From assembly GCF_900890425.1 (NCBI RefSeq), contig NZ_CAAHFG010000001.1:2046001-2110000 (forward strand): DNA of 64,000 bases, read 5' to 3'. Shown here piece by piece: positions 1,361-22,490 of this stretch (positions are counted from its first letter, which is position 1; each line of letters opens with the position of its first letter). The notes under the pieces are model-generated. The model did no database searches and was not told the origin of the DNA. It saw only the letters and a list, made by a program, of their open reading frames with translations. A program made the position numbers and the translations under genes. The DNA is from Pontiella desulfatans. Lineage in GTDB: Bacteria > Verrucomicrobiota > Kiritimatiellia > Kiritimatiellales > Pontiellaceae.

Positions 1361-2715
1361 ACATTGCATTCATCGCCATGAGCGGTATCCGCGCATGCGA
1401 CACCGAACTACTCGAACTCGGGCTCACCCTCCCCGGCTTCGTGGAGCGCAGCAAACAGATCGCGTCGCTCCCGAGCCTCGGTCTCCTCACACTGGCCGGC
1501 ATGACGCCGAAGCGCCATGAAATCCACTATTTCGAGGTTCCTAACGTCGCATCTAAATTGACGGCCGTCCATTTAGATGCAACACCCGACTTGGTGGCCA
1601 TCTCGAGCTACAGTGCGCAGATCGACGAAGGATATCAGTTGGCGCAGCGCTACCGCGCCGCCGGTGTGCCGGTGGTAATGGGCGGCCCCCATGTAACCGC
1701 CCAGCCGCACGAGGCGCAGAAATATTGCACCTCCGTTATCCTCGGCGAAGGGGAGGCGGTTTGGCTGGACGTGCTGAGGGATGCCGAGGAAGGGAACCTC
1801 AAGCTCATCTATGATGCGCGCAAGTGCGACTTCAGTCTGGCGGACGCCCCCATGCCGGCCTTCGAGCTGCTGGATATTTCCAACTACAACCGGCTCACCG
1901 TACAGACCAGCCGGGGGTGCCCGCACAACTGTGAGTTTTGCGCGGGGTCGAATTTGATCTGTAGCCACTACAAGCAGAAACCGGTGGAGAAGGTTTTGGC
2001 CGAGATCGATCGCATCTGCGAAATTTGGCCGCACCCGTTCATCGAGTTCGCGGACGACAACAGCTTTGTGAACAAGGCCTACTGGAAGGAACTGCTACCG
2101 CAACTAAAGACGCGGCGCATCAAATGGTTCACCGAAACCGACCTTTCGGTCGCCGAGGATACGGAGCTGCTTCAGCTCATGCGCGAATCCGGTTGCGCCC
2201 AGGTGCTGATCGGACTGGAAAGCCCGACCCTCGCGCCGCTGGATCGGCTCGAATTGAACAGCAACTGGAAACGGAACCGGTTCTTGGCCTACAAGGATGC
2301 CATTCGAACCATCCAATCGCACGGCATCACCGTCAATGGATGCTTCATCGTCGGACTCGATGGGCAGACGACGGACGTCTTCAACCAGATCTTCAACTTT
2401 GTCCGCGATGCCGAGCTGTATGAAGTGCAGATCACCATCCTCACCCCGTTCCCCGGAACGGCTCTTTATGAGCGCCTGAAAAAAGCCAACCGCTTGATCG
2501 AGCCGACCAACTGGAAGAAGTGCACCCTGTTCGACCTTAACTTCCGGCCCGAGGGCATGACGCAGGACGAACTGCGCAACGGCTTCCATGACCTTGCGAT
2601 GAGGCTCTATTCGGATGAATTCACCCAATGGCGCCGCGACACCTTCAAACAAAACCTGCGGGAAACCACCAAACTATTGAGGCAGGAAAGGGTTCCGATG
2701 GCCAAGGCCGTCTAA
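1357..2715 (+). CDS. B12-binding radical SAM protein
   Basis: A 452-residue protein with an N-terminal cobalamin-binding-like Rossmann domain (about residues 35-145, with VVMGGPHVTAQP and ILGEGE) followed by a radical SAM barrel. The 4Fe-4S cluster motif is C188-x3-C192-x2-C195 in RGCPHNCEFC. EFADDNSF, GLESPT and ITILTPFPGTALYERL are standard barrel strands of this class, which includes BchE-like and HpnP-like enzymes and P-methyltransferases. The substrate is unknown; methylation or rearrangement of a lipid or secondary metabolite would fit, but nothing here decides it. The start ATG overlaps the upstream stop (ATGA) and is preceded by AGAAAGGA. Last gene of the operon. Cytoplasmic. Confidence 0.9.
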   Translation: MNIAFIAMSGIRACDTELLELGLTLPGFVERSKQIASLPSLGLLTLAGMTPKRHEIHYFEVPNVASKLTAVHLDATPDLVAISSYSAQIDEGYQLAQRYRAAGVPVVMGGPHVTAQPHEAQKYCTSVILGEGEAVWLDVLRDAEEGNLKLIYDARKCDFSLADAPMPAFELLDISNYNRLTVQTSRGCPHNCEFCAGSNLICSHYKQKPVEKVLAEIDRICEIWPHPFIEFADDNSFVNKAYWKELLPQLKTRRIKWFTETDLSVAEDTELLQLMRESGCAQVLIGLESPTLAPLDRLELNSNWKRNRFLAYKDAIRTIQSHGITVNGCFIVGLDGQTTDVFNQIFNFVRDAELYEVQITILTPFPGTALYERLKKANRLIEPTNWKKCTLFDLNFRPEGMTQDELRNGFHDLAMRLYSDEFTQWRRDTFKQNLRETTKLLRQERVPMAKAV

Positions 2716-2863
2716 TCAACAGCAACCTTGGGTGCGGTGACGTATTGATTCAGGGGGGCCGCGGCGGATGCCTTGCCGGTCAGGCCGGTTTACGGCAACG
2801 GAACCCGCCCCGGGGCATTCAAGAATGTGCAGGTATCCGCATTCATTGCGATGCCGTCAACGG
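2716..2863. other. Convergent intergenic region
   Basis: The region lies between the stops of a + strand and a - strand gene. A weak hairpin, TTGCCG (2774-2779) with CGGCAA (2793-2798), could help terminate transcription, but no T-run follows. Nothing else is recognisable. Confidence 0.3.
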
Positions 2864-4069
2864 CTACCGCCAAGTGATCCTGGCCTCGCGGCTTTCGGTG
2901 TTCACCCAAACGCTGGCGTGCTCGAATTCGCGGGTGAACTCCCATCCATCGGGCGACGTACGTTTGTATGCGCCCTTCGGCGGACCCAGCGGTTTTTTGA
3001 ATTCGGGATAATCCACCAGTGCGCCGGACGATAGCTTCCAGCCCCAACTGTATAGGAAATAGGAATAGGGCTGGGCACCGATCAGGTAACACGCCAGCGC
3101 AAACTCCACCTTCTCTTTCTGCCGGGAGTATTCCGGCATATTCGGTTGCAGGTTTCTTCGCCCCGTCCCCTCAACGCCAAGGCGGAAAACCGAAATCTTT
3201 CCGGCTTTGGCAATCCGCAGCATGTCGTCCCACTCGGAAATCAGGTTTTCCTTGCTCGACTTTACGTTCGCATAGTTTTCAAACATGATCGCGTCACTCA
3301 CCGGAAAGACCAGCTTGGCGCCCTCCGCATACGCATTGTTCGCCAGCAGGATTTTATCAGGCCCCATCTTTTTCTTGAGCGCCCCCATCATCTCTCCGAC
3401 GGCCCGTTCAATTTCCTTCTTCTTCTCTTTCCGAAGATCAACATTGCCGTGCATCTGGTCAATGAAGGCGCCATCGCAACCGGATTCCTTCACGCCCTTG
3501 GCCACCGTGTCCACCCACCATTTGCGGAAGTCGGGGTTGAGCACGTCGAAGCAAAAAGCGCCGAACTGATCCGCCAACTTGCCCGTTTGGGGATGGGGAA
3601 CCAGGAACGCCCGAAGCTTGGGGTTTTTCTCGATCCCCTCCTTGGTGAAGTCCTTGTTATAGGAGGTGTAGGGCCAGGCATAGGCGGCGTTAAAATAAAA
3701 CAACACCTTCATATCGGGCTTGATCTTTTTAAAGGCCGTCGCCTCGTGTTTCGCTCCTAATTCAGCAGCCCCGAGTTGTTTCTTCCCGTGTGATTTTTCA
3801 ATACAAAGGAAATCCGTCCGCCCGGCAATGAACTTGACCTGCTCCGGAGTCAGTAACCGATGCTCGTTTCCAAACATGTAATAGCGCGGCGTTGCATCCC
3901 AGCTGAATGCCGGATAATGGGGCTGGGGCTTGAAGAGGCTGCCATCGCTGATCCGCAAATCCCGCTGGCTCAACGAGCGGGACAAATCCTTTGCCGTCGC
4001 AAGCGTTGTCGCCGAAACCAACGACACAACGATCCACCCAAACACCTGATATGGTTTTTTAATTCGCAT
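2864..4069 (-). CDS. GHL15-like putative glycoside hydrolase, secreted
   Basis: A 401-residue protein with an N-terminal signal peptide (about 1-26, ending TTLATA). The body resembles the hypothetical glycosyl hydrolase 15 (GHL15) TIM-barrel proteins: FSWDATPRYYMFG at the first strand, MKVLFYFNAAYAWP, CFDVLNPDFRKWWVD, GCDGAFIDQMHGN (a likely catalytic Asp in FIDQ), ILLANNAY and AIMFENYAN (a possible catalytic Glu). Activity is not established for this family. It is the last gene of the 11.4-2.9 kb run, and its start overlaps the upstream beta-helix gene by 11 bases. A truncated relative of its N-terminus is found at 62142-63002. Confidence 0.7.
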   Translation of the reverse strand: MRIKKPYQVFGWIVVSLVSATTLATAKDLSRSLSQRDLRISDGSLFKPQPHYPAFSWDATPRYYMFGNEHRLLTPEQVKFIAGRTDFLCIEKSHGKKQLGAAELGAKHEATAFKKIKPDMKVLFYFNAAYAWPYTSYNKDFTKEGIEKNPKLRAFLVPHPQTGKLADQFGAFCFDVLNPDFRKWWVDTVAKGVKESGCDGAFIDQMHGNVDLRKEKKKEIERAVGEMMGALKKKMGPDKILLANNAYAEGAKLVFPVSDAIMFENYANVKSSKENLISEWDDMLRIAKAGKISVFRLGVEGTGRRNLQPNMPEYSRQKEKVEFALACYLIGAQPYSYFLYSWGWKLSSGALVDYPEFKKPLGPPKGAYKRTSPDGWEFTREFEHASVWVNTESREARITWR

Positions 4070-6347
4070 TCAAACTTCCCCCATCCCCTTCATGGTCATT
4101 CTTTTCCCGTCGCCCCATCGCGGAAACCTTCAACGGCTCGATGCCCAGCGCCAAAGCCGGACTGCCCGGCCGGAAACCAAAATCCCCTCCCGCCGGATCA
4201 ACAAACAACGGATCCCCCACCCGGCTGGACAGCTCCTTCCCGACCCCGCGCAGTGTGGCAAAATGCCGGTCCATCCAATGCGGGTCCGTCGGATGGAAGT
4301 AGAGATTTGAATCCATATCCGTCTCCACGATCCGCGGCGGAGGCTTCCCTCCATTGTCTTTTCCCCGAGGCCGTTCGTTGTGGGCCTTGCCGCCATCGGG
4401 ATGGGAAACGATAATGTTGCGTTGCACTTTTGAACCGGGAACCGGCACCCATTCGTAACTGATGTATCCGCTTGAGGGAACAACCACCGGATCGACGATG
4501 AAATTATTGATGATGTCGTTGATTCCCTTCGATGCGATTCCCGCCGAAAACCCGCCGTTGTTGAACAGGACATTGCCATGGATGAGTGTTTCATGCTGGT
4601 CATCGTCGCATCGGATCGACGATGGAAAGTGCTTCGCCTGGTTGTCGTGGAGATAGTTATAGCGCACGATATTCCCCGTCCCTGTTCCGGAAACATAAAT
4701 GCCGTTCCCATCCGACAGGAGCTGAACGCAATAGGAAATATCGTTGTATTCCAGCAGATTGTGCCGGGCATGATTATACTTTTCACGAATCTTCCAACTC
4801 TCGTAGCCATCCCGGCTTCTGGTTTCATCGCCCGGCTCGATTTCATCCCGACGCACGGTTCGTCCCCCCTCCCCATCCAAGCTTCGACTCGGTTCAACAC
4901 GGGTCGTAATGAGCACGGCCGAATATCCACTGTGATGCAGCTCATTATGAACCATCCGGTTGTGGCCGCTCTGCCAAGCCCACAGCCCCGGGGAATGCCA
5001 GAGAATCTCGCTGAAGTGATGGATATGGTTATTCACAATATCGTTGTGATGGTTCACGTCCTTGGAGCCGGGGCCATACCCCGCCAGCAGTATACCGGCC
5101 TCGCCCAGGTGGGCGAATTCAGAGTCGGCCACCCGGTTGCGCTGGGCATGCAGATCCATGCGCAGGCCCGACCCGCCGGAATGGATAAAACGACAATGCT
5201 CGACCCGGCACCCTTCCGCCCCGCGGAAACGAAGCAGGGCGGTGGGACGATCGAACAGATCCCAGTCGTGCTGCATGCCCCAACCCACGCGGTCGTCATC
5301 GCTGGTCCAGGCCCTGCGATCCGCGTGGGAAAACGTCAACCCCGAGAAGGCAATTCCCCGGACCGGAAGATCCGTTGGCCCGTCGTAATCAATCTGCCCT
5401 TCCACCCGTATGAGCTCCGTTGTTGCCGGCGCAAGGATGCCCCGGGGCGATCCATCCGGCGCCGGATCGGCAGGCCATAAATAGATTTTCCGTGTTTTGG
5501 TGTTCACCACCCACTCGCCCGGTTCGTCCAGGGCCTCGAGAATGTTTTCGACCCACACCACCGAGGCCCCGGGATCATGGAGATAGCCCGGCAACGGCCC
5601 CATCTCGTACGTCGCGGAAGCACCGGTTGTGGCAACCCCGTTCGCTTCATCAACCGAGGCCAGCGGGAGCATGTTAACGACCCAGGCGCGGCCGGGCCGC
5701 ACCAGGATTTCCACATCGTCGAGATGATCCCAGTTTTTCAGGGCACCTTCCGGAAAATGCAGCGTGCGCTTGGTCCCCATCTTCGCATAGGCAAAACCGG
5801 AATTGCGCGCACGGTTCAGGCGGCCATGGTTGTCGTAGAGCGTATGGAACCGACCCAAGGTTCCCGGCAGGTCCGCCACCCAGACCCTGCCCACCGCATT
5901 GGCCGGCAGCTCGGCAGGGGGCGATTCCAACCGTTGCCAGCCGTTCACAGGCACACCGCCACTTAAAACCGGGTGTTCGCCCGGATAGGCGGCGATGGTT
6001 AAATGGGCGGGTTCCTTGGTTTCGCCCGCACCATATGGTTCGAGCTTCACACCAGCCGACGTAGCGGGCGACCCATCCTGTAGTCCCAAAACCAGGGTTT
6101 CGCTCAGCTGATGACGCCCCTCGCGCAGGACAATCCTTGCGGGTTCCGCATGCCCGGCTTGACGCAAGCCCCTTACCGCCTCCACCGCTTCGGAAAGAGA
6201 GCCATAGGGTTTCGCCAGGCTTCCGTCGGCCTGCCCGTTGCCATCCGGCGATACATGCAATTCCATCGCCTGCGCCAAAGCTCCTCCCAGGCAGAAAAGG
6301 GCCAGCAGCAGGCGGTAGCTAAAGATGGCGTCCGTTCGTATGTTCAT
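4059..6347 (-). CDS. Secreted right-handed beta-helix protein
   Basis: A 762-residue protein with a signal peptide (about 1-27, ending GGALAQA). MELHVSPDGNGQADGS followed by SLSEAVEAVRGLR is the usual opening of secreted beta-helix proteins. The central region (about residues 320-640) has many short N-, H- and G-rich coils such as HHNDIVNNHIHHFSE and IVRYNYLHDNQ. This layout is shared by the GH141/GH120-type and polysaccharide lyase-like helices; the exact CAZy family cannot be read with certainty. A polysaccharide-cleaving role is inferred from the context (GH29 upstream, GHL15-like downstream). It follows the previous gene by 24 bases and overlaps the next by 11. Confidence 0.75.
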   Translation of the reverse strand: MNIRTDAIFSYRLLLALFCLGGALAQAMELHVSPDGNGQADGSLAKPYGSLSEAVEAVRGLRQAGHAEPARIVLREGRHQLSETLVLGLQDGSPATSAGVKLEPYGAGETKEPAHLTIAAYPGEHPVLSGGVPVNGWQRLESPPAELPANAVGRVWVADLPGTLGRFHTLYDNHGRLNRARNSGFAYAKMGTKRTLHFPEGALKNWDHLDDVEILVRPGRAWVVNMLPLASVDEANGVATTGASATYEMGPLPGYLHDPGASVVWVENILEALDEPGEWVVNTKTRKIYLWPADPAPDGSPRGILAPATTELIRVEGQIDYDGPTDLPVRGIAFSGLTFSHADRRAWTSDDDRVGWGMQHDWDLFDRPTALLRFRGAEGCRVEHCRFIHSGGSGLRMDLHAQRNRVADSEFAHLGEAGILLAGYGPGSKDVNHHNDIVNNHIHHFSEILWHSPGLWAWQSGHNRMVHNELHHSGYSAVLITTRVEPSRSLDGEGGRTVRRDEIEPGDETRSRDGYESWKIREKYNHARHNLLEYNDISYCVQLLSDGNGIYVSGTGTGNIVRYNYLHDNQAKHFPSSIRCDDDQHETLIHGNVLFNNGGFSAGIASKGINDIINNFIVDPVVVPSSGYISYEWVPVPGSKVQRNIIVSHPDGGKAHNERPRGKDNGGKPPPRIVETDMDSNLYFHPTDPHWMDRHFATLRGVGKELSSRVGDPLFVDPAGGDFGFRPGSPALALGIEPLKVSAMGRREKNDHEGDGGSLNAN

Positions 6348-6371
6348 GGCTCCCTTCCTTTTTTCCGACGG

Positions 6372-8570
6372 TTACTTTTTCTTCTTCTTTTTCTTCTTGG
6401 CATTCATGGGAACACGTTGAACGTCCGCCGCTTGATAGGTGTTCAAACCCAAGACCCCGCGCGGCAGGTCGACCACAGCGATTTCGGGGACGATGGAAAC
6501 GGCGTGATATTTCTTCGCATAGGCCTCCGCCTGCGCCATGGTTCCGGGAACGGCCAAACCATAGGGCATCCAGTCGCTTCCCGTCGGCCAGGCGATGCCC
6601 TTGTATTCATAGGCGCCCCGGAAACGATCCAGAGCGGTTACGCCTTGGGCGTTCAATCCCGCCGTTTGGCCTACGCCGTTTTTCACGGTGCCATCCACCG
6701 GAATCAAATTCAAACCGTCCAGCTCTCCGTTCATGAAGATCGAGTTTTCAAACCCCGTCAGGTTCCCCTGGACGCTTCCTCGATCCGAAATGGGGATGGA
6801 TTTGTTTTTCGCCCGTTCCGGATGAAGGGTTCCCGCCTGCCTAGACTCCGTAAAAGGGCCGTCCTCGCTGGGGCCCACCCGGTCCACGAACTCCGCCACC
6901 AGGTTGTTTAACACATTCCAGTCATCGATCGGGGGAAAGCTCGTATCGTTGCTGACCGTTGCGTCGCCGGTTCCTTTGCGCTTGGCAACGACGTTCCGTG
7001 TCATCATGCAGGGTTCATGGTTCAACACCGAGGTGTTGTTATAGACATTGAAATTGCCGAACCCCTCAATATTCAACCCCCGCTTGGACGCCCAGAAAAC
7101 ATTGTGATGCACCGTCAGTTTTTCTCCGGCCTGATCCAGGCGCACACCGTTGCCTTTTACGTTATGCACCCAGTTATGATGGAACTCGGTCCAGTGCTGC
7201 GACAGGTTGGGCATGTATACGCCGGACACATCGCTGTTGTATAACCCCGCATTGCAAATGTTATTGAACGAGATGTCGGGGTTTGCGCTTCCCGAATAGG
7301 CCCCATGATCAAAACTGATCCTGATGGCATCGGAACAGTTGTTGAAAAAGGTGTTGCGGGTGACCTTGAACGTCCCCTTGGCGTAGACATGCAACGCCAC
7401 GCTTTGAAAATTCGCATGGCGATTGTTTTCCGCAAAAACACAGTTTTGAACAATGAGATCCGATCCGCCCAAGCGTAGTGCCGTATTCTGGGCACCGGCA
7501 AACAGGCATGCGTCAAACCCAACCCGCGTCCCTTCCACATGAATGGGTTTCGCGATTTGTTGGCCAAGCGGGTTGTTGATGAAAAGCGGTTCTGCGCCAA
7601 TATAGGTGAAGTGTGCATCCTGAAAGATGATTCTATCATTTGCCGGATGGCCCAACTTGACCGAGGTAGCAAAAAAATCGATACCCTGAATCCTCACGTC
7701 GGAAACAACCTCGTCCGAATGGATGGCGTAGTCGGCGGTCTTCACCCAAACCTCCGCCGCGTTGGGTTGCCCGCCTCCGGGGGCATGGAAATAGAGGATG
7801 CCGTCCTCGGCAAACCATTCCCCTTCCGCATCGAGCAGGTCCAGCGCACCCGCCAGGAAAAACCTGGCCCTCACATTGGGCTTCGCCTTGCCCTTGCCGA
7901 TGGCCGCCGGAGAACCTTTCCGCCCATCCTCGCCGGTGAATGCAACGGAATAAAAATCGCGGTCGTCCCAGTGCAAGGTATCGCCATCGAAGGATTCGAT
8001 GAGCCGGCTGTAGCAGCTGTTTCCTTTTGAGTAGCGCAGGAAACAGTATCCGCCGACCAGGTCGAGATCCTTCATGCCGCCGAATGCATCGGCTTTGAGT
8101 TCCCCGGGGCCGGACCCCGGGCCGGACGACGCCCATTTTTTATTTCCGATCCAGTTTTCAGACCACGTCAGATTGGGCCAGCGGGCCCAGCTCATTGGTT
8201 GGTTTGCATAAAAGATTTGCTTCGGGTTTGTTCCAACGTTAATCCTGAAGATGTTTCCCTCGTGCTTTTCGAAGGCCCCCTTCAAGGGTTCCGCCCCGCA
8301 GAGAACCACCTTGCGCGGGTTTTTCGCCTGAAGGGCAATGCCCGACTTCAGCTTCAGCGTTCCGGTGTAGCAGCCGTCCAATACAACCAGCGTGTCGCCG
8401 GCGCGCATCCTATCGACGGCATGCTGCACCATCCGGAATGGCTGCTCTTCCGAGCGGCCCGGGTTTCCGTCGTTCCCTGAAGGTGAAACGAAATAGGTTG
8501 CCGCTGAAACTGCGGAACAAACCACGAACAAACTCGGAACCGCAACCAGGATGGGTGTCTTTCCCGCCAT
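6372..8570 (-). CDS. Secreted beta-helix protein with a C-terminal poly-lysine tail
   Basis: A 732-residue protein with a signal peptide (about 1-23, ending CSAVSA) followed by ATYFVSPSGNDGNPGRSEEQ, the canonical start of a right-handed beta-helix fold. Helix coils run to about residue 520 (FKVTRNTFFNNCSDAIRIS, LTVHHNVFWASKRGLNIEG). About 150 less repetitive residues follow, and the protein ends in eight consecutive lysines, which is unusual for a secreted protein. The tail is encoded by A-rich codons at 6372-6401 and is in frame, so slippage could vary its length. It begins 11 bases after the TonB/vWA-like gene, in the same operon. Enzymatic activity is unknown. Confidence 0.75.
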   Translation of the reverse strand: MAGKTPILVAVPSLFVVCSAVSAATYFVSPSGNDGNPGRSEEQPFRMVQHAVDRMRAGDTLVVLDGCYTGTLKLKSGIALQAKNPRKVVLCGAEPLKGAFEKHEGNIFRINVGTNPKQIFYANQPMSWARWPNLTWSENWIGNKKWASSGPGSGPGELKADAFGGMKDLDLVGGYCFLRYSKGNSCYSRLIESFDGDTLHWDDRDFYSVAFTGEDGRKGSPAAIGKGKAKPNVRARFFLAGALDLLDAEGEWFAEDGILYFHAPGGGQPNAAEVWVKTADYAIHSDEVVSDVRIQGIDFFATSVKLGHPANDRIIFQDAHFTYIGAEPLFINNPLGQQIAKPIHVEGTRVGFDACLFAGAQNTALRLGGSDLIVQNCVFAENNRHANFQSVALHVYAKGTFKVTRNTFFNNCSDAIRISFDHGAYSGSANPDISFNNICNAGLYNSDVSGVYMPNLSQHWTEFHHNWVHNVKGNGVRLDQAGEKLTVHHNVFWASKRGLNIEGFGNFNVYNNTSVLNHEPCMMTRNVVAKRKGTGDATVSNDTSFPPIDDWNVLNNLVAEFVDRVGPSEDGPFTESRQAGTLHPERAKNKSIPISDRGSVQGNLTGFENSIFMNGELDGLNLIPVDGTVKNGVGQTAGLNAQGVTALDRFRGAYEYKGIAWPTGSDWMPYGLAVPGTMAQAEAYAKKYHAVSIVPEIAVVDLPRGVLGLNTYQAADVQRVPMNAKKKKKKKK

Positions 8571-8581
8571 CGGATTCTGCC

Positions 8582-9889
8582 TTACTCGCCCCCCTCGGCG
8601 GACACATAGCTTTGAATGGCGTCCATCCCTTCGATCCGCTTGTATTTGCCCCGGGTTTCGCTGGCGATCTTGCTGAACTGGGGATCCTTCGCCGAGCCGC
8701 TGCCCGACGGAACAAAGTGGATGACATTGATGGAATATTTGGTTTTCTTCTTGTTGATCCCGCTCTTCAAGGGCGTGGCCGCCTTCGATTTGCTTTGTGT
8801 GTTGTCAAACGCCTCAACCATCATTTCCGGGGAATAATTGGCATGGGTGGTGGTGCCGGGCGGAAGGCGCGCACCGGGAATATATGCATTCACCAAGCCG
8901 CGCTCGCCTCGCGCAATCACCCGGGGCGGTTGACCCTTTGCGCGGCGGCGATCGTTTTCCTCTTTGAACAGCGCGCGGGCCTTCGCCACGTTTTCCTTGT
9001 ATTTTTGCTGGTCGGACTCATCCCAGTCCCGCTCCCGGGTTCCGGTTTTATACTTCAACTCGCTTCCCCAGCGGCAGGTGAGGAGGAAGACCACTTCCGC
9101 CTGCTGCTGCATGGCCATGAGCGTTGGCCTGGCCCAACCGCCGGGCGTGTTCTTGAGCGGCTCAACCTGGAAATCCCCGCCGACCCGAATGCCGCCCGGC
9201 GCCAGCGTCTTCGGGCCGTAGTCATTGTCGCCCATGCCCCGGCTCACGGCATTGAGCGGCTTCAGCCAGGCATCCACCTTGGCGACATTGCCCGGGGTTG
9301 CCGGCACCATGTCCGGGAACAGGGTATATTCGCCGCCGCCGTACACGGCGATATTAAACAGGACGGTCGAATTTAATCCGCCCAGAATGCGCACGAGTTC
9401 GGATTTAATGATGGTATAGGCCGGAATTCCCCCCATCTTGTCCACCATCATGTAGGCGGAGGAATCCAGGATGATGAAGACCTTCTCGCCCCGGCTCTTG
9501 ATGCCGAACAATTCCATCTCCGGCATCGAAAAGCCGACGCCGCCGCTGCCTCCCAGGCCATCGCCCGCCGACCCCATACCGCCCTTCACCCCGGTAATTT
9601 CCGGCATCTTGATGTCGGGCACCGTCTGGTTCAGTTTGGGCTGCACCACGATCCGTTTGCGCAACTTGGGCTTCTGGGTTTTCTTCTTCTTGATGTTGAC
9701 CGGGACCTGCAGCTTTTTCACGGGCACCCGGGGCCGGTTCACCTTCTTGGATTCAAATTTTTGTTCCTCTTTCGTGATGACCGTCACCGCCACGAACGAG
9801 AGCGCCACGACCAACAGGATGGCGTGGATCCCCAAGCTGATGAGTGCCGCGCTCGATTTGGCGTGTTTAGCGAAATACCTTTTCTTCAT
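8582..9889 (-). CDS. TonB/TolA-like membrane anchor fused to a degenerate vWA-like domain
   Basis: A 435-residue protein. After a basic N-terminus comes one transmembrane helix (about 13-36) containing S18-x3-H22 (SLGIH), the Ser-His spacing of TonB/TolA helices that contact ExbB/TolQ. A Lys/Pro-rich stretch follows (about 45-90, KKLQVPVN, KPKLRKRIVV), then a Gly-rich linker. From about residue 135 there is a vWA-like fold: KVFIILDSSAY as strand 1, FNIAVYG as strand 2, VVFLLTCRWG where LLTDG is expected, and FSKIASETRGKYKRI at the end. The metal site is degenerate: DxSxY instead of DxSxS, and Cys in place of the TDG Asp. A close paralogue lies at 20533-21897. Function unknown; a periplasmic energy-transducing or scaffold role is speculative. 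Confidence 0.7.
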   Translation of the reverse strand: MKKRYFAKHAKSSAALISLGIHAILLVVALSFVAVTVITKEEQKFESKKVNRPRVPVKKLQVPVNIKKKKTQKPKLRKRIVVQPKLNQTVPDIKMPEITGVKGGMGSAGDGLGGSGGVGFSMPEMELFGIKSRGEKVFIILDSSAYMMVDKMGGIPAYTIIKSELVRILGGLNSTVLFNIAVYGGGEYTLFPDMVPATPGNVAKVDAWLKPLNAVSRGMGDNDYGPKTLAPGGIRVGGDFQVEPLKNTPGGWARPTLMAMQQQAEVVFLLTCRWGSELKYKTGTRERDWDESDQQKYKENVAKARALFKEENDRRRAKGQPPRVIARGERGLVNAYIPGARLPPGTTTHANYSPEMMVEAFDNTQSKSKAATPLKSGINKKKTKYSINVIHFVPSGSGSAKDPQFSKIASETRGKYKRIEGMDAIQSYVSAEGGE

Positions 9890-9975
9890 TTTCCCCGGCC
9901 CACCTTCAATTGGCTTAAAACTCAGTCGTGCCGCATCCTGCGTTGGATAAACCTCCGCGACGCTTGATCATACCG

Positions 9976-11451
9976 CTAATGTAGCTTGATCCGGAAGCCG
10001 TTGACAATCCGCCCCGGCAGTTTTTTCGGCAACTTGATCATCAGGCCATCCGGAGAGCGCTTCCATTGAAGCGGCTCCTTGCTGCCCATTAATTCGATGG
10101 ATGCAATTTCCTGATCGAGCAATCCGCCCGTGGCCAAGGTCTTGATAACCAGATCCTGCGTCGGCGGAGCCAGCACGAAGGCGTAGAGTATGCCATCCCG
10201 GGTGGTGAAGCGGACGTCTTCCTGCGAGAATTCCCGATGGTTTTCACCCTGTCGGCCATCCTTCACCTGCAAGGGGCCTTCGCCGAAGGTTTTCCATGGG
10301 CGGGAGCCGTAGATGCCTTCGCCGTTGGTTTTCAGGAAATCGCCGAACGCGTCGAGATAGGCGGCCTGTTTTTCCGGCAAGGTGCCGTCGCCACGCAGGG
10401 CAATGTTGAGCATCACGACCCCGTTCTTGCTGATGGCATCAACCCCGTTGGCCACCATCACCGGAATGCTCATTTTATTGACGGACCCCGCACGGTAGAA
10501 CCAGCCGCCGGAAAGGTCGGTCGCCCACATCCAGGGCACCGTCTTGATTTCCCCGGCACCGCCCCGTTCGAGGTTGTAGGTGAAGGCCTTGCGGTCCAGC
10601 TCGGCATTTTTGGTGGAAAAGACGACGGTTTGCCTGCCGTTGTTTTCCTTCAGGTCGCGGTTGATGTATTCCGCAATGAACTGCGGGAATTCCACCTTGG
10701 GGTATGAGCCGCAATCATGGTTGAACATATCGGGATCGTATTTCTCGACAATCTCCCAGCAGCGGGCATACCAGTGTTTGTTCCAGCTCTCCTGGTTGGC
10801 GTAGTTGTTGGGATCGTAATCCATATTGAAGAGCTTCCACTCCAGCGTGCCCTCTTTTTGGTATTTGCGGGCCGGACGGAACCAACCGGGCGACCAGTAG
10901 AGATGGGTGGAGATCCCGAACTTGAGACCGTGCTTGGTTGCCGCGGCCTTCCATTCCTTGAGCGTGTCGCGTTTCGGCCCCATCTTCACCGAATTCCAGG
11001 GGTGGAAGGAATCATACATATCGAAGTTGTCGTGGTGGCAGGCCACGGGCATCACAAAACGCGCCCCGTTCCCCTTCACATAGGCCACCAACGCGTCGGG
11101 ATCCCATTTCTCGCCCTTGAACAGCGGGATCATCTTTTCATAGCCAAACTCCGACGGAGGCCCGTAGCGCTTGGTGTGCCATTCGCAGAGTTCCTTGGCC
11201 TGCTTCTTTCCACCGCCGTACATGTTTTTGCCATACCACGATCCATCGTTGGGGCGGTCTTCATCGACCGCCGAAGGAATACCCCAGTGGAACCAGACCC
11301 CGAGCTTTCCGTTCTGAAGCCATTCCGGAACCTGATAGTGCGCCGCCAGCGATTCCCACGTCGGCTCGATCTGCGCAGCATGGGCCACGCTGGAAAGCAA
11401 GGCTCCGGCACACATGCCGAGCAATCGGTTAACTTGTTTTTTGTAGTTCAT
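9976..11451 (-). CDS. Alpha-L-fucosidase, GH29
   Basis: A secreted retaining fucosidase. The ATG at 11451 is chosen over one 75 bases upstream because it has AAGGAAACGG in front and opens a clean signal peptide (ending SSVAHA). GH29 features in order: WLQNGKLGVWFHWG, ARFVMPVACHHDNFDMYDS (the conserved HHDGF-type loop, with Asn for Gly), LKFGISTHLYWSPGWF and PDMFNHDCGS, where the Asp is the expected nucleophile. VVMLNIALRGDGTLP closes the catalytic domain, and a beta-sandwich follows. It removes terminal L-fucose from oligosaccharides. First gene of a likely five-gene operon; its upstream region is occupied by repeats (11496-11755), with a palindrome further out. Confidence 0.9.
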   Translation of the reverse strand: MNYKKQVNRLLGMCAGALLSSVAHAAQIEPTWESLAAHYQVPEWLQNGKLGVWFHWGIPSAVDEDRPNDGSWYGKNMYGGGKKQAKELCEWHTKRYGPPSEFGYEKMIPLFKGEKWDPDALVAYVKGNGARFVMPVACHHDNFDMYDSFHPWNSVKMGPKRDTLKEWKAAATKHGLKFGISTHLYWSPGWFRPARKYQKEGTLEWKLFNMDYDPNNYANQESWNKHWYARCWEIVEKYDPDMFNHDCGSYPKVEFPQFIAEYINRDLKENNGRQTVVFSTKNAELDRKAFTYNLERGGAGEIKTVPWMWATDLSGGWFYRAGSVNKMSIPVMVANGVDAISKNGVVMLNIALRGDGTLPEKQAAYLDAFGDFLKTNGEGIYGSRPWKTFGEGPLQVKDGRQGENHREFSQEDVRFTTRDGILYAFVLAPPTQDLVIKTLATGGLLDQEIASIELMGSKEPLQWKRSPDGLMIKLPKKLPGRIVNGFRIKLH

Positions 11452-11495
11452 TCCGTTTCCTTCACGATGGTTATATGCAATCAACCTGAAAGCTC

Positions 11496-11755
11496 TCACC
11501 ACAGAGAGCACGGAGGCGCAGAACAATCATTGCATACTGACCTCTGTGCCTCCGTACTACTATCCGTCAATTTCTTGTTTTCCTGGCAAATTTTTTCACC
11601 ACCCGCTGCGCTAGAGGACTCTGAGGCACAGAGGGTTAGGATGCTCTGTGTCTCTGAGATCTCTGTGGTAAAAAATCCGTGTCTTCGGTGTTCATCTGTA
11701 GCTTCAAATAATTTGGTTGCGGCACCGCTGCTCCAGGGCCTCTGTGGTAAAAAAT
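11496..11755. repeat. Cluster of ACCACAGAG/CTCTGTGGT-type interspersed repeats
   Basis: The stretch 11452-11944 holds no gene. Most of it is built of variants of one word in both orientations: CACCACAGAGAGCACGGAGG near 11497, CTCTGTGCCTCCG near 11542, CTCTGTGTCTCTGAG near 11643, and CTCTGTGGTAAAAAAT twice (near 11662 and 11740). The short open frames here are typical translations of such repeats, not genes. The cluster separates the fucosidase from the palindrome at 11853, as if inserted in its promoter region. Confidence 0.7.
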
Positions 11756-11852
11756 ACAAATCAGTTTAATCTGGTATTCCACGGCCAATGCCCGCCAGAG
11801 CATCCGAGGCATCCTCAAATCAAATACTTTACGTGCCCCCGCAATTCCGGGT

Positions 11853-11870
11853 ATCCCAATTATTAGGGAT
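11853..11870. promoter_or_regulatory. ATCCC-N8-GGGAT palindrome, putative operator
   Basis: A perfect 5-bp inverted repeat, ATCCC and GGGAT, separated by eight A/T bases. Related sites lie upstream of the genes starting at 20085 (20164-20181, one mismatch) and 15467 (15576-15593, right arm degenerate). Here the nearest downstream start is the fucosidase about 400 bases away, beyond the repeat cluster. Regulator unknown; found by hand alignment. Confidence 0.4.
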
Positions 11871-11892
11871 AGCCTCCGTTTATGGATAAAGA

Positions 11893-11924
11893 AAACGCCC
11901 CGCGGAACCTTCCACGAGGCGTTT
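11893..11924 (-). terminator. Intrinsic terminator after the PEP-CTERM gene
   Basis: Read on the - strand, AAACGCCTCGTGG pairs with CCGCGGGGCGTTT around an AAGGTT loop (13-bp stem with two G-U type positions) and is followed by TTTTCTTT. It starts 21 bases past the stop of the gene at 11945. Confidence 0.8.
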
Positions 11925-11944
11925 GCCGGAAACCTGCCAAGCCC

Positions 11945-12712
11945 TTAGCCAAATCTTCTCTTAAGCCACAAGAACCCGAATCCGGCCAGTCCTACCAGTG
12001 TCAGCGCAGCCGGTTCCGGAATGGCTTCCAGCGACACTGAATTAATGATTTTAGTCCGCTCATTATCCTGACCATAGGCGGCAAAACTAAAACTCTTAGT
12101 GAAGTCAAATGATGCGATATTGCCGGAACCTTGCTCGGTGCCAGCGATAGAAAGTGTCCAGTCCGCACCACCAATCCCATCGTCTTCAACACGAATAACC
12201 ACTTCCCGATCGGTTCCTGCACCAATTGCGTCACCGTCTAAAGTGGTCACCGTTGACTCATCCGCAAAGTTGAGGCCAACAGGGACACCGCTCTCGGTAA
12301 TAAGGTTCACCCCGATACTATATACGGAGGACAGCTCCGCGAACGGGCTGTTATCGTCTACCGCTGACCAGGAACTCGCATCCGCCAACAAACCGAAACC
12401 AAAAAGGTTTCTTCCGGCTGTAGCGACACTGTTGCACGTATAGTTAACCGTAAGCTCAACCCCCCCGGCTGACTGGAAAGAATTCGTGGAATACAAAAGG
12501 GCCGAGTCACTAAAACTAGTACCCGTGTTGTTGTAGGTAGCATCCCCGTCGTCGCCCCAAGACCCGCCTCCTTGTGTCTGCGCCGCGCCGCCGCCGATCC
12601 CGGCATTCGTTCCCAGCCCGTCGCCATCAAAACTGTCCTGATAGACGACATCCGCCTGAGCGGCCGCCGCCAGCAGTAATAAAATGCCCACCGTGTATCG
12701 TGCTTTATTCAT
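11945..12712 (-). CDS. PEP-CTERM sorted secreted protein
   Basis: About 255 residues. The second of two adjacent ATGs (12712) is preferred because it is better spaced from AAAGGA. A signal peptide (ending AAAAQA) is followed by VVYQDSFDGDGLGTN and a beta-rich, Gly/Ser/Asp-rich domain of about 205 residues. The C-terminus is a classical PEP-CTERM signal: IPEPAALTLVGLAGFGFLWL then KRRFG, that is a PEP motif, a hydrophobic helix and basic residues. Such proteins are processed by exosortase and exported to the surface or exopolysaccharide; no exosortase is in the window. The body is homologous to the N-terminal domain of the next gene upstream (YSIGVN/YSLGVN, SFAAYGQDNE/HFVAYGQDDQ). It has its own terminator. 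Confidence 0.85.
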   Translation of the reverse strand: MNKARYTVGILLLLAAAAQADVVYQDSFDGDGLGTNAGIGGGAAQTQGGGSWGDDGDATYNNTGTSFSDSALLYSTNSFQSAGGVELTVNYTCNSVATAGRNLFGFGLLADASSWSAVDDNSPFAELSSVYSIGVNLITESGVPVGLNFADESTVTTLDGDAIGAGTDREVVIRVEDDGIGGADWTLSIAGTEQGSGNIASFDFTKSFSFAAYGQDNERTKIINSVSLEAIPEPAALTLVGLAGFGFLWLKRRFG

Positions 12713-12782
12713 CATTATCCTTTATTACCATGGGGCGTCGAAACCAGGAATGAACGTCCTCGGATCCATTTCCTGCGTCAGG

Positions 12783-12810
12783 AATCGGGCAGGCGCATGC
12801 CTGCCCGATT
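12783..12810 (-). terminator. Strong stem-loop after the Ig-repeat protein gene
   Basis: A perfect 12-bp stem AATCGGGCAGGC / GCCTGCCCGATT around GCAT, 18 bases past the stop of the gene at 12828. The T-run is on the opposite side (TTTT on the + strand), so efficiency toward the - strand is uncertain. Confidence 0.6.
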
Positions 12811-12827
12811 TTCAAGAACCGGCCTAT

Positions 12828-15467
12828 TTATTCGCTGAGCTTGAAAAACAGCACAGGCTCGCTACCGATTGCATTAGTAACCGGTGAAGCTGCGTTCGGA
12901 ATTGCTACGCCCCAGTTCGGAATCACGAGATTGGCGTTGGTCAGCACGTCGTAAGTCGCCGCGCCTTCCCAGGAGAACACCAGGTCGCTGCCTGAGACGC
13001 CGAGGGCGATATCCGGAACACCGCCCGGCTTGATGCTAATGCTGAAGTCAACCTGATTCAGGTTCCATCTTTGGGGGTTGGAATCGGGCAGGCCACCAGA
13101 AACAGCCGATGTGATATGGAGCGGATTGACCTCGGTCAGGACATTGTTAATGGCATACTGCGTGGCATTAAACCGGGTTGCAAACAAGCCGCCTGCCCCT
13201 TCGCCAATGACAACCTGATGGCCGTAACTATTGCCCGACTCCCTATACGTTACACCCGTATAGCGGTTCAGCGATGCTGTGGCGGAGCCCATGCTCGCGG
13301 AAACAGTCAAGTTCTGGACAGTGACTGCCAAGGTATCCCCGGCCTGCATCTGTCCGTCTGCAACCGCCCAACCGTTCGCATTGAGGGTTACTGCAACATC
13401 ATTCGAACCGATGGCGGCCGAACCATTATACTTGTTCACGTCCGCATCAGAACCGGCAAAGGTTGTACTGGCCACGCTGCCATTCCAGGCCTCAACCAGC
13501 ACGTCGAAGGTCAACGTATCGTTGACAGCATCCCCGTCCACATCTGCGCCGGTATAGGTGACTGAATAGATGTAATCGTTGCCGGAAGCCACACCGGTAA
13601 CCGTGACGTTGCTGGAGCTACCGTCGACCATCAGCGTGTTGTTCGATGCAACCAACGCCGTGTTGAGTTCCGTAAAGGAAATATTCACCCCTTCAGACTC
13701 AACCCAAATCCGCACTATGGCCGGATCGCTGTCGCGCACACCATCGTTGACCGTGAATGTAAAGCTGTCTGCTCCTTCATACCCCGGATCCGGCATATAG
13801 GTCAGGTTTGGAGCGGTTCCGCTCAGCATACCGTTGGCCGGTGAGCCAGCCGAATAGGTCAGATTGCTGCCCTCCGGATCGCTACCCGTCAGTGTAACCA
13901 CAACATTCGACCCATATTCAGTAAAGACCTGCTGCGAATCCGCAGTGGGAACATAGTTGGTCACCATAATCGAAATGGTGGCCGGATCGCTATCGATCAA
14001 ACCGTCGTTGACCTTGAACGTGAAGTTGTCCGGCCCTTCATAGCCCGCATTGGGGGTGTAGGTCCACATGTTCGATCCGCCATCCAGCGTACCGTAGTCC
14101 GGGGTATCCACCACCGCATAGGTCAGGTTGCTCGGACCGTCCGTATTGGTGCCGGTCAGCGTGATCGCCAAGGTGGAGTCGGGGAATACAACCAAACTTT
14201 GCGCAATGGCAATCGGCGCCTCGTTCGTCACCGCAATCGAAACGGTAGCCGGCTCACTGTTGCTCATTCCATCATAGAGGGTGAATGTGAAGCTGTCGGT
14301 TCCCGTATATCCGGCCGACGGGGTGTAGGTCAGATCCGGGGCCGTGCCCGTCAGCGCACCGATGAGCAACGAAGCATCCACCGCAAAGGTCAGGTTGCTG
14401 GGGCCGTCGGCGTCGGTGCCGGTCAGCATGATGCCCAGTACCGTATCGGGCAGCATCTGTAAATTTTGCGCGTCGGCGACAGGAGCGTCATTCGGCGCCA
14501 CGGCAATCGAAATGGTGGCAGGATCGCTGTCAACCAAACCGTCGTTGACGGTGAAGGTAAAGCTGTCTGCCCCCTGGTAACCGTTCGTCGGGGTGTAGAT
14601 GACATCCGGCATGGAGCTGATGTCCAGCGTGCCGTTGGTCGGATGGTCAACGATGGCATAGGTTAGACTGCTTCCCTCCGGGTCGCTCCCGGTCAGTGTG
14701 ATGTCCCATGCAGTGTCGGGATACACCTTGATACTTTGCGGATCTGCGGTGGGAGTCGCATTCCCGAGCGCATTCAGCGAAACCGAATAAATGCCTTTGT
14801 TACCTTGATCGTCCTGGCCATACGCAACGAAATGGAAGGTTTTGCTGAAATCAAATACCGGGATATTGCTGGTGCCTTGATCAACACCGTCGATCGACCA
14901 GGAGCAATCCGCGCCGCCCAGGCCATCCGGAGAGACATTCATCACAACCACGAAATGGGTAGGTAGGGCGGCAGGCCCAAGAGAACCCGAATCCAGGTTC
15001 GTCACGGTTGACCCATCGGTGAAAGCGAGATTTCCATTTTTAGAATTCACGCCCAAACTGTAAACAGACGTATCACCAGAGAACGGATGGTAGCCGCTGT
15101 ACGTGGTAAAATCCGTATCAGAACTCACCAAACCGAAGGACAGCGCACTCGCTCCACTACTAAGCGTCCAAAAATAATCGACCGTGAGTTCAAATCCATC
15201 AGTAGACTGGAAGCCATTGTCCGTATAGCCGATGGCCCGATTCTGAAAATGGGTGCTGCTAGCTGAATACTGCAGGTTTCCGTCATCGTCCCATTTATAG
15301 CCCACCCCCCCACGAAGCGATCTGCTGGTCATCCCGCCCCCGCTATTGGTATTCACGGTCAGCGTGTCGTTGTCAAAGTTGTCCTGATAGACCACCGCCG
15401 CCTGCGCCGTTCCTGCCAGCAACGTTGCCGCCAGCGCCGTCATCATCCCTAACCATCGCTTCTTCAT
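12828..15467 (-). CDS. Large secreted adhesin-like protein with four Ig-like repeats
   Basis: An 879-residue protein with a signal peptide (about 1-23, ending AGTAQA). Residues about 24-235 are homologous to the PEP-CTERM protein at 11945 (VVYQDNFDNDTL start). Four tandem Ig/cadherin-like repeats of about 90 residues follow (about 238-600), each with a YTP.GY.G.DSFTFTVNDG core and SDPATISI end, as in Big_9-type domains. A module of about 220 residues (about 605-820, starting SFTELNTALVASNN, containing TGADVDGDAVNDTLTFDVLV) recurs twice in the next protein. The C-terminus has no PEP-CTERM signal. Likely a surface adhesin or polysaccharide binder. The start has GGAGG six bases upstream. The Ig repeats could recombine. 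Confidence 0.8.
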   Translation of the reverse strand: MKKRWLGMMTALAATLLAGTAQAAVVYQDNFDNDTLTVNTNSGGGMTSRSLRGGVGYKWDDDGNLQYSASSTHFQNRAIGYTDNGFQSTDGFELTVDYFWTLSSGASALSFGLVSSDTDFTTYSGYHPFSGDTSVYSLGVNSKNGNLAFTDGSTVTNLDSGSLGPAALPTHFVVVMNVSPDGLGGADCSWSIDGVDQGTSNIPVFDFSKTFHFVAYGQDDQGNKGIYSVSLNALGNATPTADPQSIKVYPDTAWDITLTGSDPEGSSLTYAIVDHPTNGTLDISSMPDVIYTPTNGYQGADSFTFTVNDGLVDSDPATISIAVAPNDAPVADAQNLQMLPDTVLGIMLTGTDADGPSNLTFAVDASLLIGALTGTAPDLTYTPSAGYTGTDSFTFTLYDGMSNSEPATVSIAVTNEAPIAIAQSLVVFPDSTLAITLTGTNTDGPSNLTYAVVDTPDYGTLDGGSNMWTYTPNAGYEGPDNFTFKVNDGLIDSDPATISIMVTNYVPTADSQQVFTEYGSNVVVTLTGSDPEGSNLTYSAGSPANGMLSGTAPNLTYMPDPGYEGADSFTFTVNDGVRDSDPAIVRIWVESEGVNISFTELNTALVASNNTLMVDGSSSNVTVTGVASGNDYIYSVTYTGADVDGDAVNDTLTFDVLVEAWNGSVASTTFAGSDADVNKYNGSAAIGSNDVAVTLNANGWAVADGQMQAGDTLAVTVQNLTVSASMGSATASLNRYTGVTYRESGNSYGHQVVIGEGAGGLFATRFNATQYAINNVLTEVNPLHITSAVSGGLPDSNPQRWNLNQVDFSISIKPGGVPDIALGVSGSDLVFSWEGAATYDVLTNANLVIPNWGVAIPNAASPVTNAIGSEPVLFFKLSE

Positions 15468-20532: not shown

Positions 20533-21897
20533 CTATTTGACGTAGCTCTGGATTTCCTCGAGCCCCTTGACCGTCTGATATTGCCCCTTGCAGAGCTGGG
20601 TCAGCTGGCTGAAATTACCCGATGAACGTTCGTCGGCTTCGGCATCCACCCGGATGAACTGAACCACGTTGAGCGAAAAATCCATCTTGCTGCTTTTCTT
20701 CTTATTCAGCCCACTGGCCGTCAGCGCTTCCCGGGGCCGATACTGATCTTTCATCGCGGCGAAGGCTTCGGCAAAATCGAGCGGCTTGTAATAGTAAAAA
20801 TCGGGTTCGGGCGGACGTTCCGTGTCAGGGAAATATTCACGTATAATTCCCCATTCCCCACCGGAGATCACTTTCGGAGGCTGTCCGGCGGACTTTCGCT
20901 TCACATTCTCCTGCGCCAACTTCTCCCGCCCTTTGGCCACTAATTCCGTCCACTTTTTTCCTGCGGAGGTGGTCTTCTTCCACTCCTGCAGAGGGGGCAC
21001 TTTTTGGAGCGCCACACGCTGATGACCCCAGGCGTTGCTTAGGATGAACACCGTATCGGCCTGCTGCTGCATGGCCACCATGGTCGCATCGTACCAGACG
21101 CGGCCACCACTCCATTCGTCCCCGTAGATCGATCCGCCTTTCTTGAGGGGTTCCGCAAACTTTCCGATGCGGTAATCGCCGCGATTATCGACGCCGCCCG
21201 GCCCTAGCGTTTCAATACCGAATTTTCCGGACGTTACCGCATCGCCTGAAGCATTCAAAGGACCTAGCCAGGCTTTGGCCTTGGCCGCATTCCCACGACT
21301 GGCCGACATTAATGAAGGAAACAACGTCTGCACCCGTCCGCCGAAAAAGACCCCAATATTAAACAAGGCTGTGGGAGGCAACTCTTCAACAATGCGGAGC
21401 ATTTCATCCTTGATAAGCGTATACGCTGGAATACCCCCCATTTCATCAATGAGCATGTGATTGCCCGTATCCAGAATCAGGAAAATCTTTTCGCCTTTGC
21501 CTTTCACCCCGAAAATCTCAATCTCCGGCATGGAAAAACCGACGCCGCCCCCATCACCAAGACCGCCGCCCACACCGCCGCCCAGGCCGCCCTTTACGCC
21601 TGTGATTTCCGGCATTTTGATGTCCGGCATCGTCTGGCTCATCTTCGGCTTCACCACGATGCGTTTGCGCAGCTTTGGTTTTTTGACGCTTTTCTTTTTA
21701 GTATTAACCGGGACTTGAAGTTTCTTTAGCTGCATTTTCGGCCGATTGACCGGTTTGGCTTCAAAGGCCTTCTCTTCCTTTTGAACCACCGTCACCGCGA
21801 CAAATGTCAAGGCGATCACAATCAGCACCGCATGGACCCCCAAACTCACCAGTGCTGCGCTGGACTTCGCGTGTTTTGCAAAAAAGCGTTTTTTCAT
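20533..21897 (-). CDS. TonB/TolA-like membrane anchor fused to a degenerate vWA-like domain (second copy)
   Basis: A 454-residue paralogue of the protein at 8582-9889, colinear over its whole length. It has the transmembrane helix with S-x3-H (SLGVH), the KPVNRPKMQLKKLQVPVN and KPKLRKRIVV basic stretch, PDIKMPEITGVKGG and a Gly-rich linker. The vWA-like part has KIFLILDTGNH as strand 1, FNIGVFFGG, VAMQQQADTVFILSNAWG and CKGQYQTVKGLEEIQSYV. The MIDAS is lost (DxGxH for DxSxS; no Asp after ILS), differently from the first copy, so the metal site is not conserved even within the family. The start has GGAG six bases upstream. The long leader carries the shared element at 22025-22091. Function unknown. 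Confidence 0.7.
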   Translation of the reverse strand: MKKRFFAKHAKSSAALVSLGVHAVLIVIALTFVAVTVVQKEEKAFEAKPVNRPKMQLKKLQVPVNTKKKSVKKPKLRKRIVVKPKMSQTMPDIKMPEITGVKGGLGGGVGGGLGDGGGVGFSMPEIEIFGVKGKGEKIFLILDTGNHMLIDEMGGIPAYTLIKDEMLRIVEELPPTALFNIGVFFGGRVQTLFPSLMSASRGNAAKAKAWLGPLNASGDAVTSGKFGIETLGPGGVDNRGDYRIGKFAEPLKKGGSIYGDEWSGGRVWYDATMVAMQQQADTVFILSNAWGHQRVALQKVPPLQEWKKTTSAGKKWTELVAKGREKLAQENVKRKSAGQPPKVISGGEWGIIREYFPDTERPPEPDFYYYKPLDFAEAFAAMKDQYRPREALTASGLNKKKSSKMDFSLNVVQFIRVDAEADERSSGNFSQLTQLCKGQYQTVKGLEEIQSYVK

Positions 21898-22024: not shown

Positions 22025-22091
22025 AATTCGCAAAGATTGAGACATAAGTTACAAAAGCAACCTCAGGGCGTCAATCGGGCAAACAACCGAG
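22025..22091 (-). promoter_or_regulatory. Conserved upstream element A (67-bp promoter layout)
   Basis: On the + strand the blocks are AATTCGCA (22025-22032), AAGTTACAA (22046-22054) and GGCGTCAATC...AACCGAG (22067-22091). The same three blocks occur with identical 21-base offsets at 24777-24843. The right-hand block also recurs at 48814 and 62091. It lies 128-194 bases upstream of the start at 21897. Probable promoter/operator; factor unknown. Confidence 0.55.
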
Positions 22092-22122
22092 ACTGAACAG
22101 CTAATGGCCTTGCAAGCGCTGA

Positions 22123-22245
22123 GAGCAAACCGCCGAATATCGCTGGTGTTCGCAGGCCTGGCTCGAACACCACGCCGACCGCGCCTTCGTCAACACCCTC
22201 GCCAAATTCAAAACCGACCGCATTTCCGTGCGCGATGATTTTTGA
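22123..22245 (+). pseudogene. Unrecognised C-terminal protein fragment
   Basis: An open frame on the + strand with protein-like composition (TAEYRWCSQAWLEHHADR, then FVNTLAKFKTDRISVRDDF) ends at a TGA just before the palindromic repeat. It has no start and no identifiable family. It may be the 3' end of a gene lost when the repeat region rearranged, or a chance frame. Confidence 0.25.
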
Positions 22246-22489
22246 GAAAAGGTTCTGGAGAAAAGTTTTGGAGTGCGGTGGCAACGAGGAACGAGGCGAC
22301 ACCGCTTTTGCGAGCGCACCGTACCGTTCAACCGCAAAAGCGGTGTGGCGCTGCGCTTCCCACCGCACTCCTGATTGCCGCCCGCCCGTTTCATCTCCGG
22401 CTCGTTTAAAAGCGGTGTCGAGCGACTTCGTCGGCCTCCGGCCCACCGCACCCCAGATTGGCATTTGGAGGCCTGCGTAAACACCCCCG
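22246..22489. repeat. Palindromic repeat element with nested inverted repeats, interrupting a sulfatase
   Basis: Outer arms GGAGTGCGGTGG (22270-22281) and CCACCGCACTCC (22360-22371) and inner arms ACACCGCTTTTGCG (22299-22312) and CGCAAAAGCGGTGT (22333-22346) are both perfect. A third half-unit in reverse orientation follows (AAAAGCGGTGTCG near 22412, CCCACCGCACC near 22443). The unit thus reads GTGCGGTGG...GACACCGCTTTT, present once forward and twice reversed. No transposase is nearby, so a non-autonomous or REP-like element is likely. Confidence 0.7.
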
Positions 22490-22490
22490 T

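Follow-up and report, generated by a model that had tools for sequence, protein, structure and literature searches.

Force transducers with a vWA head have been described beside TPR-tolQ-tolR-tolR genes from Tichowtungia, with no function assigned (Mol Biol Evol, June 2025, section 8, Fig. 4a/b; PMC12204202). In that description the N-terminal helix bears an SHLS motor motif, a disordered linker of ~100 residues with a motor box follows, and the gene lies 'often' downstream of a TPR gene, a tolQ-like gene and two tolR-like genes; by this wording, a motor-adjacent position is not strictly required for membership of the class. AF3 models in PMC12204202 place the vWA force transducers on the motor via the same histidine that is present in the protein described here. 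We analysed a 64,000-nucleotide stretch of the genome of Pontiella desulfatans, a marine bacterium that degrades polysaccharides (contig NZ_CAAHFG010000001.1, positions 2,046,001 to 2,110,000), hereafter the window, which holds at 8582-9889 a gene for such a protein, termed an arm below. The initial annotation had offered this gene as part of an undescribed system, a claim overtaken by the 2025 publication of the class as vWA force transducers.

Architecture of the arm protein

The region 8582-9889 is a single 435-aa ORF on the minus strand, and the plus-strand frame is no gene. The protein begins MKKRYFAKHAKSSAALISLGIHAILLVVALSFVAVTV, followed by a K/P-rich part, a Gly-rich linker and a head of 310 residues. 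By residue, a cytoplasmic tail of ~12 residues leads into a helix at 13-37 with S18-LGI-H22, then the K/P-rich part (~40-97), the Gly-rich stretch (103-119) and the head (121-434). An AlphaFold2 model built on a 47-sequence alignment has the helix at 13-37, no secondary structure and low pLDDT over 38-120, and a head with pLDDT mostly >90. KLQVPV is conserved within the disordered linker of roughly 83 residues, and the motor-box strand is absent from the monomer model. The S-x3-H helix, K/P-rich stretch and Gly-rich linker named in the initial annotation, which gave no strand, are all present in the minus-strand ORF. The paralogue was found at 20533-21897 (454 aa, 48% identity to the arm), and the GH29, two beta-helix and GHL15 neighbours that had been noted are co-directional with the arm. 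The features of the two arm genes are listed below.

8582-9889, minus strand: arm gene, 435 aa, with an N-terminal membrane helix, a disordered K/P/G-rich linker and a metal-less vWA head; class I (AlphaFold2 and structure search; class from the N-module tree)
9779-9853, minus strand: transmembrane helix, residues 13-37 (AlphaFold2 model, conservation)
9791-9838, minus strand: putative motor-binding face S18-x3-H22-x6-A29-x3-V33 (invariance in arm alignments)
9530-9778, minus strand: disordered periplasmic linker, residues 38-120, with conserved KLQVPV and KLRKRIVV, PDIKMPEITGVKGG and a Gly-rich end (AlphaFold2, alignment)
8588-9529, minus strand: vWA-fold head, residues 121-434, with a helical insertion at ~291-368 (AlphaFold2, structure search)
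9452-9466, minus strand: degenerate DxSxS, D142-S-S-A-Y146 (head alignment)
9071-9079, minus strand: degenerate TDG position, T271-C272-R273 (head alignment)
20533-21897, minus strand: the other class I vWA arm of 454 aa, whose helix also bears S-x3-H-x6-A-x3-V (48% identity, trees)

Scanned against Pfam to E 1, the arm matches VWA_3 alone and below threshold (E 0.028), so the vWA assignment of the head needed structure. Using VIA-align against the PDB, the AlphaFold2 head reaches Z 15.7 to the vWA domain of ITIH1 (6fpy_A) over 169 residues at 2.7 Å, and this superposition, a check proposed in the initial annotation, bears out its vWA-like head. The recognisable matches below it are vWA or vWA-like as well, namely a bacterial vWA protein, a TFIIH subunit, alpha-2/delta-1, Rpn10 and Sec23/24. 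The two top ranks by Foldseek E-value, which had large rmsd, were set aside in favour of a second aligner, and the fold call gives no weight to a match listed as 'Infectious B19V capsid' (9c4f chain I). The head is also metal-less, as had been suggested, since DxSxS reads DSSAY and TDG reads TCR at the MIDAS positions. Of 47 relatives, 4 have the full DxSxS and 2 have the TDG Asp; a single one has both. In the alignment, the head strands are conserved and the MIDAS-equivalent positions belong to the head's most variable columns. An NCBIfam scan found no family for any arm.

Conservation of the putative motor-binding helix

The S-x3-H helix is kept in all arm classes. Among 47 vWA-headed arms sampled at the level of the order, H22, A29 and V33 are each invariant (47/47), and S18 is kept in 45, with T in the other two. 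All 17 of the PA14-headed arms keep the positions equivalent to S18, H22, A29 and V33. Phylum-wide, most arms retain S-x3-H, and the last two positions of the face vary, e.g. L/T or A/T. The spacing, i, i+4, i+11 and i+15, is that of S16/H20/L27/S31 in E. coli TonB. In terms of the SHLS motif, the 8582-9889 arm has S18 and H22, and its L and S positions are A29 and V33. Judged from a conservation far beyond chance, the N-terminal helix is probably a motor-binding helix of the TonB/TolA type.

Motors, arm classes and distribution

The P. desulfatans assembly (8.66 Mb, 6 contigs, 95% complete) gave ~30 matches to the arm module, 28 of which have the S-x3-H motif. These comprise 17 class I vWA arms, two PA14-like heads on the class I module (L034, L035), seven class II arms with PA14/SHD1 heads, one class III arm (L037) and one broken chimera (L032). 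A further copy of the module, in L046, lacks the motif. Eleven of the class I vWA arms are of the type of the 8582-9889 arm, and six have an HFGPAT-type or LAGPA loop. Nearly all of the ~28 lie far from any motor gene. Searches for ExbB/ExbD found the canonical TonB and Tol loci plus three TPR-TPR-ExbB-ExbD-ExbD operons (L033, L050, L051), and in L033 two class I arms follow directly after the motor genes. The six-gene operon with resident arms recurs in six congeners (L056-L061), in a second family within the order (L067-L070) and, further afield, in other families of the phylum (L185, L187, L189, L191, L193-L195). The search for arms beside ExbB/ExbD proposed in the initial annotation thus returned such homologues, and its TonB/TolA-type motor-coupled anchor agrees with the conserved S-x3-H face and with close paralogues directly behind ExbB-ExbD-ExbD. 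Neither of the two outcomes named there as refuting occurred. Both ExbDs of the motor operon have the IDxVF Asp, and ExbB has GTVxGM and TTATGL. In L069 (G028), two arms place the motif His at residue 35, its position in the published model too, and this locus is therefore probably the published one or closely related to it. An additional ExbB-ExbD-ExbD set without an arm lies at 467-483 kb of another P. desulfatans contig (L053, G000:C4).

The concatenated ExbB-ExbD-ExbD tree has three clades and the arm-module tree has matching classes, which pair motor M1 with class I arms, M2 with class II and M3 with class III. M1 (G000:C1, ~231-239 kb, two resident arms) is ~1.8 Mb from the 8582-9889 arm gene. 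The latter is not downstream of TPR, tolQ-like and tolR-like genes and is in this sense an orphan, whereas class I paralogues in L033 and L056-L061 are so placed. As M2 and M3 have no resident arm in this genome, class II and class III arms must be orphans by location. Across 18 arms of the genome, mean identity is 64% in the N-module versus 34% in the head, and 96% of pairs are more alike in the N-module than in the head. Such a pattern would be expected of arms that have a motor in common and touch different targets. On these sequence grounds, the ~28 arms probably share three proton-driven motors. From paralogue synteny and the matching trees, we infer that the 8582-9889 arm may couple physically to M1; against this reading stand the lack of linkage between arm gene and motor gene, the A and V at the last two SHLS positions and a monomer model that shows no motor-box strand.

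The arm module was found in 35 of 40 relatives, with 1-25 copies in genomes of the same genus, and copy number rises with genome size (Spearman 0.85, 12 near-complete genomes). In a sample of the phylum it is present in 33 of 195 genomes; counts of at least 10 are confined to this genus and a single genome from a sister family, with only the best 21 candidates scored in the largest genomes. Named database matches of the module are nearly all from Kiritimatiellales, mainly Pontiellaceae.

Exchangeable heads and rearranged arms

PA14 likeness belongs to sister arms and not to the 8582-9889 arm. The head of a class II arm (L040) has a PA14 fold with Z 11.3 to 6m8m and Z ~10-11 to several lectin-type PA14 domains, and is followed by SHD1 (2hbp, Z 8.0). 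PA14-like heads are also mounted on class I modules (L034, L035, L095), and the L034 head matches Pfam PA14 below threshold (E 0.0011). In the GDD stretch of the PA14-arm alignment, the first Asp is present in 16 of 17 arms and the second in 11 of 17. The L034 arm (8598-9704 of its locus; G000:C4, ~0.425 Mb) has neighbours that look like dnaA/dnaN by sequence; these are syntenic in L163 (up to 96% identity), and L034 therefore looks like a core gene.

Several loci hold rearranged arms. L032:8658-10516 (G000:C1, ~1.376 Mb) is a broken chimera of a 5' class I vWA arm and a 3' PA14/SHD1 arm, probably left by a deletion between tandem arms; tandem vWA-PA14 pairs are found in relatives (L077, L093). 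Two class II arms, L042:8188-10020 and L044:8385-10217, are 99.6% identical over 1,833 bp, which is the ORF only, with unrelated flanks, and this fits gene conversion between arms or an ORF-precise duplication. In L046:7282-10083 (minus strand), a single ORF joins an anti-sigma-like segment, the juxtamembrane module of the arms, here lacking S-x3-H, and a YfbK vWA domain whose DxSxS is intact. vWA and PA14 arms lie side by side or a few kb apart in L077, L086, L087, L088, L089 and L093, and one locus may accordingly use two motor classes.

Gene neighbourhood and glycan context

The genes from GH29 through the arm, a beta-helix protein and a GH141-like beta-helix protein to GHL15 all run in one direction; three of the junctions are gaps, of 86, 11 and 24 bp, and at one the genes overlap by 11 bp. 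From this spacing, a single operon is plausible.

9976-11526, minus strand: GH29 alpha-L-fucosidase, directly upstream of the arm, gap 86 bp (Pfam E 4.4e-70; domain scanned 9976-11454)
6372-8570, minus strand: secreted right-handed beta-helix protein, 11 bp downstream of the arm (Pfam Beta_helix, DUF1565)
4059-6347, minus strand: GH141-like beta-helix protein (Pfam Beta_helix, GH141_M)
2864-4069, minus strand: GHL15-like protein, last gene of the run (Pfam GHL15, E 4.7e-45)

A promoter and terminator scan of 2500-12900 gave 4 promoter-like sites versus 4.5, i.e. chance level. Upstream of the run lies a PEP-CTERM protein gene (11945-12715, minus strand), with a strong terminator-like stem between the two at 11893-11924. 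Just upstream of the second arm, 22063-22617 (minus strand) is a truncated sulfatase remnant with a normal signal peptide and a NIIFVLADDLGY start followed by unrelated sequence; it has no Pfam match.

Genes near other arms encode GH29, GH95, GH106, lambda-carrageenase-like and FGE-type proteins. The initial annotation had suggested export, assembly or retention of giant beta-helix enzymes as the function; this is not borne out, because arms adjoin many unrelated enzymes and beta-helix proteins are not the common denominator of their loci. Among immediate co-directional neighbours, GH29/GH95 genes occur in 10 of 53 cases, whereas the controls have them in 1 of 55 (p 0.004); for LacI/XylR-type regulators the counts are 5 versus 0 (p 0.03). 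These p-values are nominal, from several gene families tested, and optimistic since the sets mix own and related loci. A sulfatase cluster as the defining context was rejected, as sulfatases, the hallmark of glycan loci here, occur at 7 of 24 arm loci versus 9 of 20 random regions of this genome, which is full of them. Secreted co-directional neighbours (17/33 versus 43% of controls by a crude signal-peptide rule) are not convincingly enriched, and no partner protein common to arm loci was found.

Where two arms have heads of 60% identity or more, neighbours are common to both in 9 of 42 pairs, versus 12 of 650 other pairs (p 8e-7), and ordinary gene-order conservation could account for part of the neighbours common to orthologous arms. 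The orthologue in P. sulfatireligans (head 83% identical) has GHL15 (49%), GH141-like (41%) and distant GH29 genes nearby; a shared-neighbour cut-off of 50% identity missed the GHL15 and GH141-like neighbours of the arm, and one of 38% found them.

Proposed role and alternative explanations

We consider it rather likely that the 8582-9889 gene encodes an orphan, locus-specific periplasmic force-transducer arm that plugs into the shared M1 motor and pulls an envelope partner in glycan handling. In such a mechanism, the arm helix would dock on the side of the M1 ExbB pentamer, and proton flow through ExbB/ExbD would pull or cycle the arm. The head would reach across the periplasm and, needing no metal ion, hold a protein partner specific to its locus, either at the outer membrane or at the cell wall. 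Arms made with the local catabolic operon would engage the common motor and supply energy to the envelope partner required during growth on that glycan.

A passive anchored binding protein, in which the helix is a membrane anchor only and the vWA head a periplasmic scaffold for secreted enzymes, with no energy involved, would suit arm genes that are unlinked to motors, a head of a typical protein-interaction fold and the secreted enzymes that adjoin arm genes. We regard it as unlikely, because S/H/A/V at i, i+4, i+11 and i+15 are kept in 64 of 64 arms (T for S in two) with unrelated heads, the arm-module tree follows the motor clades and resident arm copies lie behind ExbB-ExbD-ExbD. Trans-envelope sensing, with heads that read glycan or envelope state and a motor-arm complex that signals to an adjacent regulator, cf. 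PA14-bearing anti-sigma factors, seems quite improbable. Of 26 arms in the genome, 7 do have a two-component or LacI/XylR/AraC regulator no more than 5 kb away, versus 3 of 40 control points (p 0.04). The anti-sigma PA14 domain of Clostridium clariflavum is another match of PA14 heads (6qe7, Z 10.8), and in L046 a relative of the module is joined to YfbK and an anti-sigma-like segment; however, the cytoplasmic tail is ~12 residues, most arms have no adjacent regulator, and none lies within 5 kb of the 8582-9889 or the 20533-21897 arm locus.

Arms could also stand in for TonB and energise the SusC-like, TonB-dependent oligosaccharide transporters of each locus. The TonB-like anchor, the GH29/GH95 neighbours and a set of one arm per catabolic locus, which resembles PUL logic, would be in keeping with this, yet the genome holds only three plug-domain TonB-dependent receptors against ~28 arms, and TonB_C (PF03544) is found only in two canonical TonBs, each adjoining its own motor, whereas arm heads have vWA or PA14 folds. 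On the receptor count, we rejected this role as very unlikely. Gliding or surface motility with arms driving surface adhesins, a suggestion of the authors of PMC12204202 that recalls the vWA adhesins of Myxococcus gliding, is hardly credible here, as two Pontiella type strains showed no motility in any condition tested (PMC6388578) and P. agarivorans is described as nonmotile.

Extending the force-transducer reading from this gene to the genome gives a more tentative model of many arms and few motors, which we hold as possible rather than probable. Dozens of exchangeable arms with metal-less vWA or PA14-type heads would use class-specific keys to three TPR-ExbB-ExbD-ExbD motors and deliver PMF-derived force to a glycan-locus-specific envelope partner, in place of one TonB per transporter. 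If right, this would point to an energised outer-membrane step in polysaccharide use other than TonB-receptor uptake, and the motor-binding module would be a portable key able to carry different heads. Pontiella offers a natural experiment, since a genome has ~28 arms, motors fall into three classes, heads have been swapped and the species are in culture; as the arms lie in identifiable glycan loci of cultivated Pontiella, their function is testable by induction and partner capture.

Comparison with known systems

PMC12204202 makes no mention of PA14 heads, head swaps, multi-copy expansion, the orphan state, class-specific motors or MIDAS loss. Within the literature searched, no other paper on these features was found, and on PA14 heads of Ton/Tol-like arms PMC12204202 was the sole match. 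Apparently new are the ~28 arms in one genome, nearly all distant from motors, with three arm classes matching three motor clades, and also the PA14-fold heads, head swaps, MIDAS loss and frequent fucosidase neighbours.

The arm shares with TonB and TolA a single N-terminal S-x3-H helix, a disordered periplasm-spanning linker, a globular C-terminal head and, probably, an ExbB/ExbD-type motor. It differs from them in having no TonB_C (Pfam scan to E 1) and a vWA head, and probably in a target other than the three receptors of the genome. With MIDAS-type vWA domains (ITIH1, CglB, YfbK) the arm head has the fold in common, but the metal-coordinating residues are absent. For the sister arms, PA14 carbohydrate-binding domains (the RTX adhesin 6m8m, MpAFP 6x8d and yeast Flo5/Epa1) are the comparison; the L040 head superposes on these with Z 11.3 and 10.9, whereas class II heads are mounted on a motor-binding arm and continue into SHD1 and another beta domain, and their sugar binding is putative. 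Closest are the vWA force transducers of PMC12204202, which share with the 8582-9889 arm the S/H-motif helix, the disordered linker, the vWA head and a homologous TPR-ExbB-ExbD-ExbD operon; unlike these, the 8582-9889 arm is a motor orphan of class I rather than class III, with L/S replaced by A/V, and has ~27 companions in its genome.
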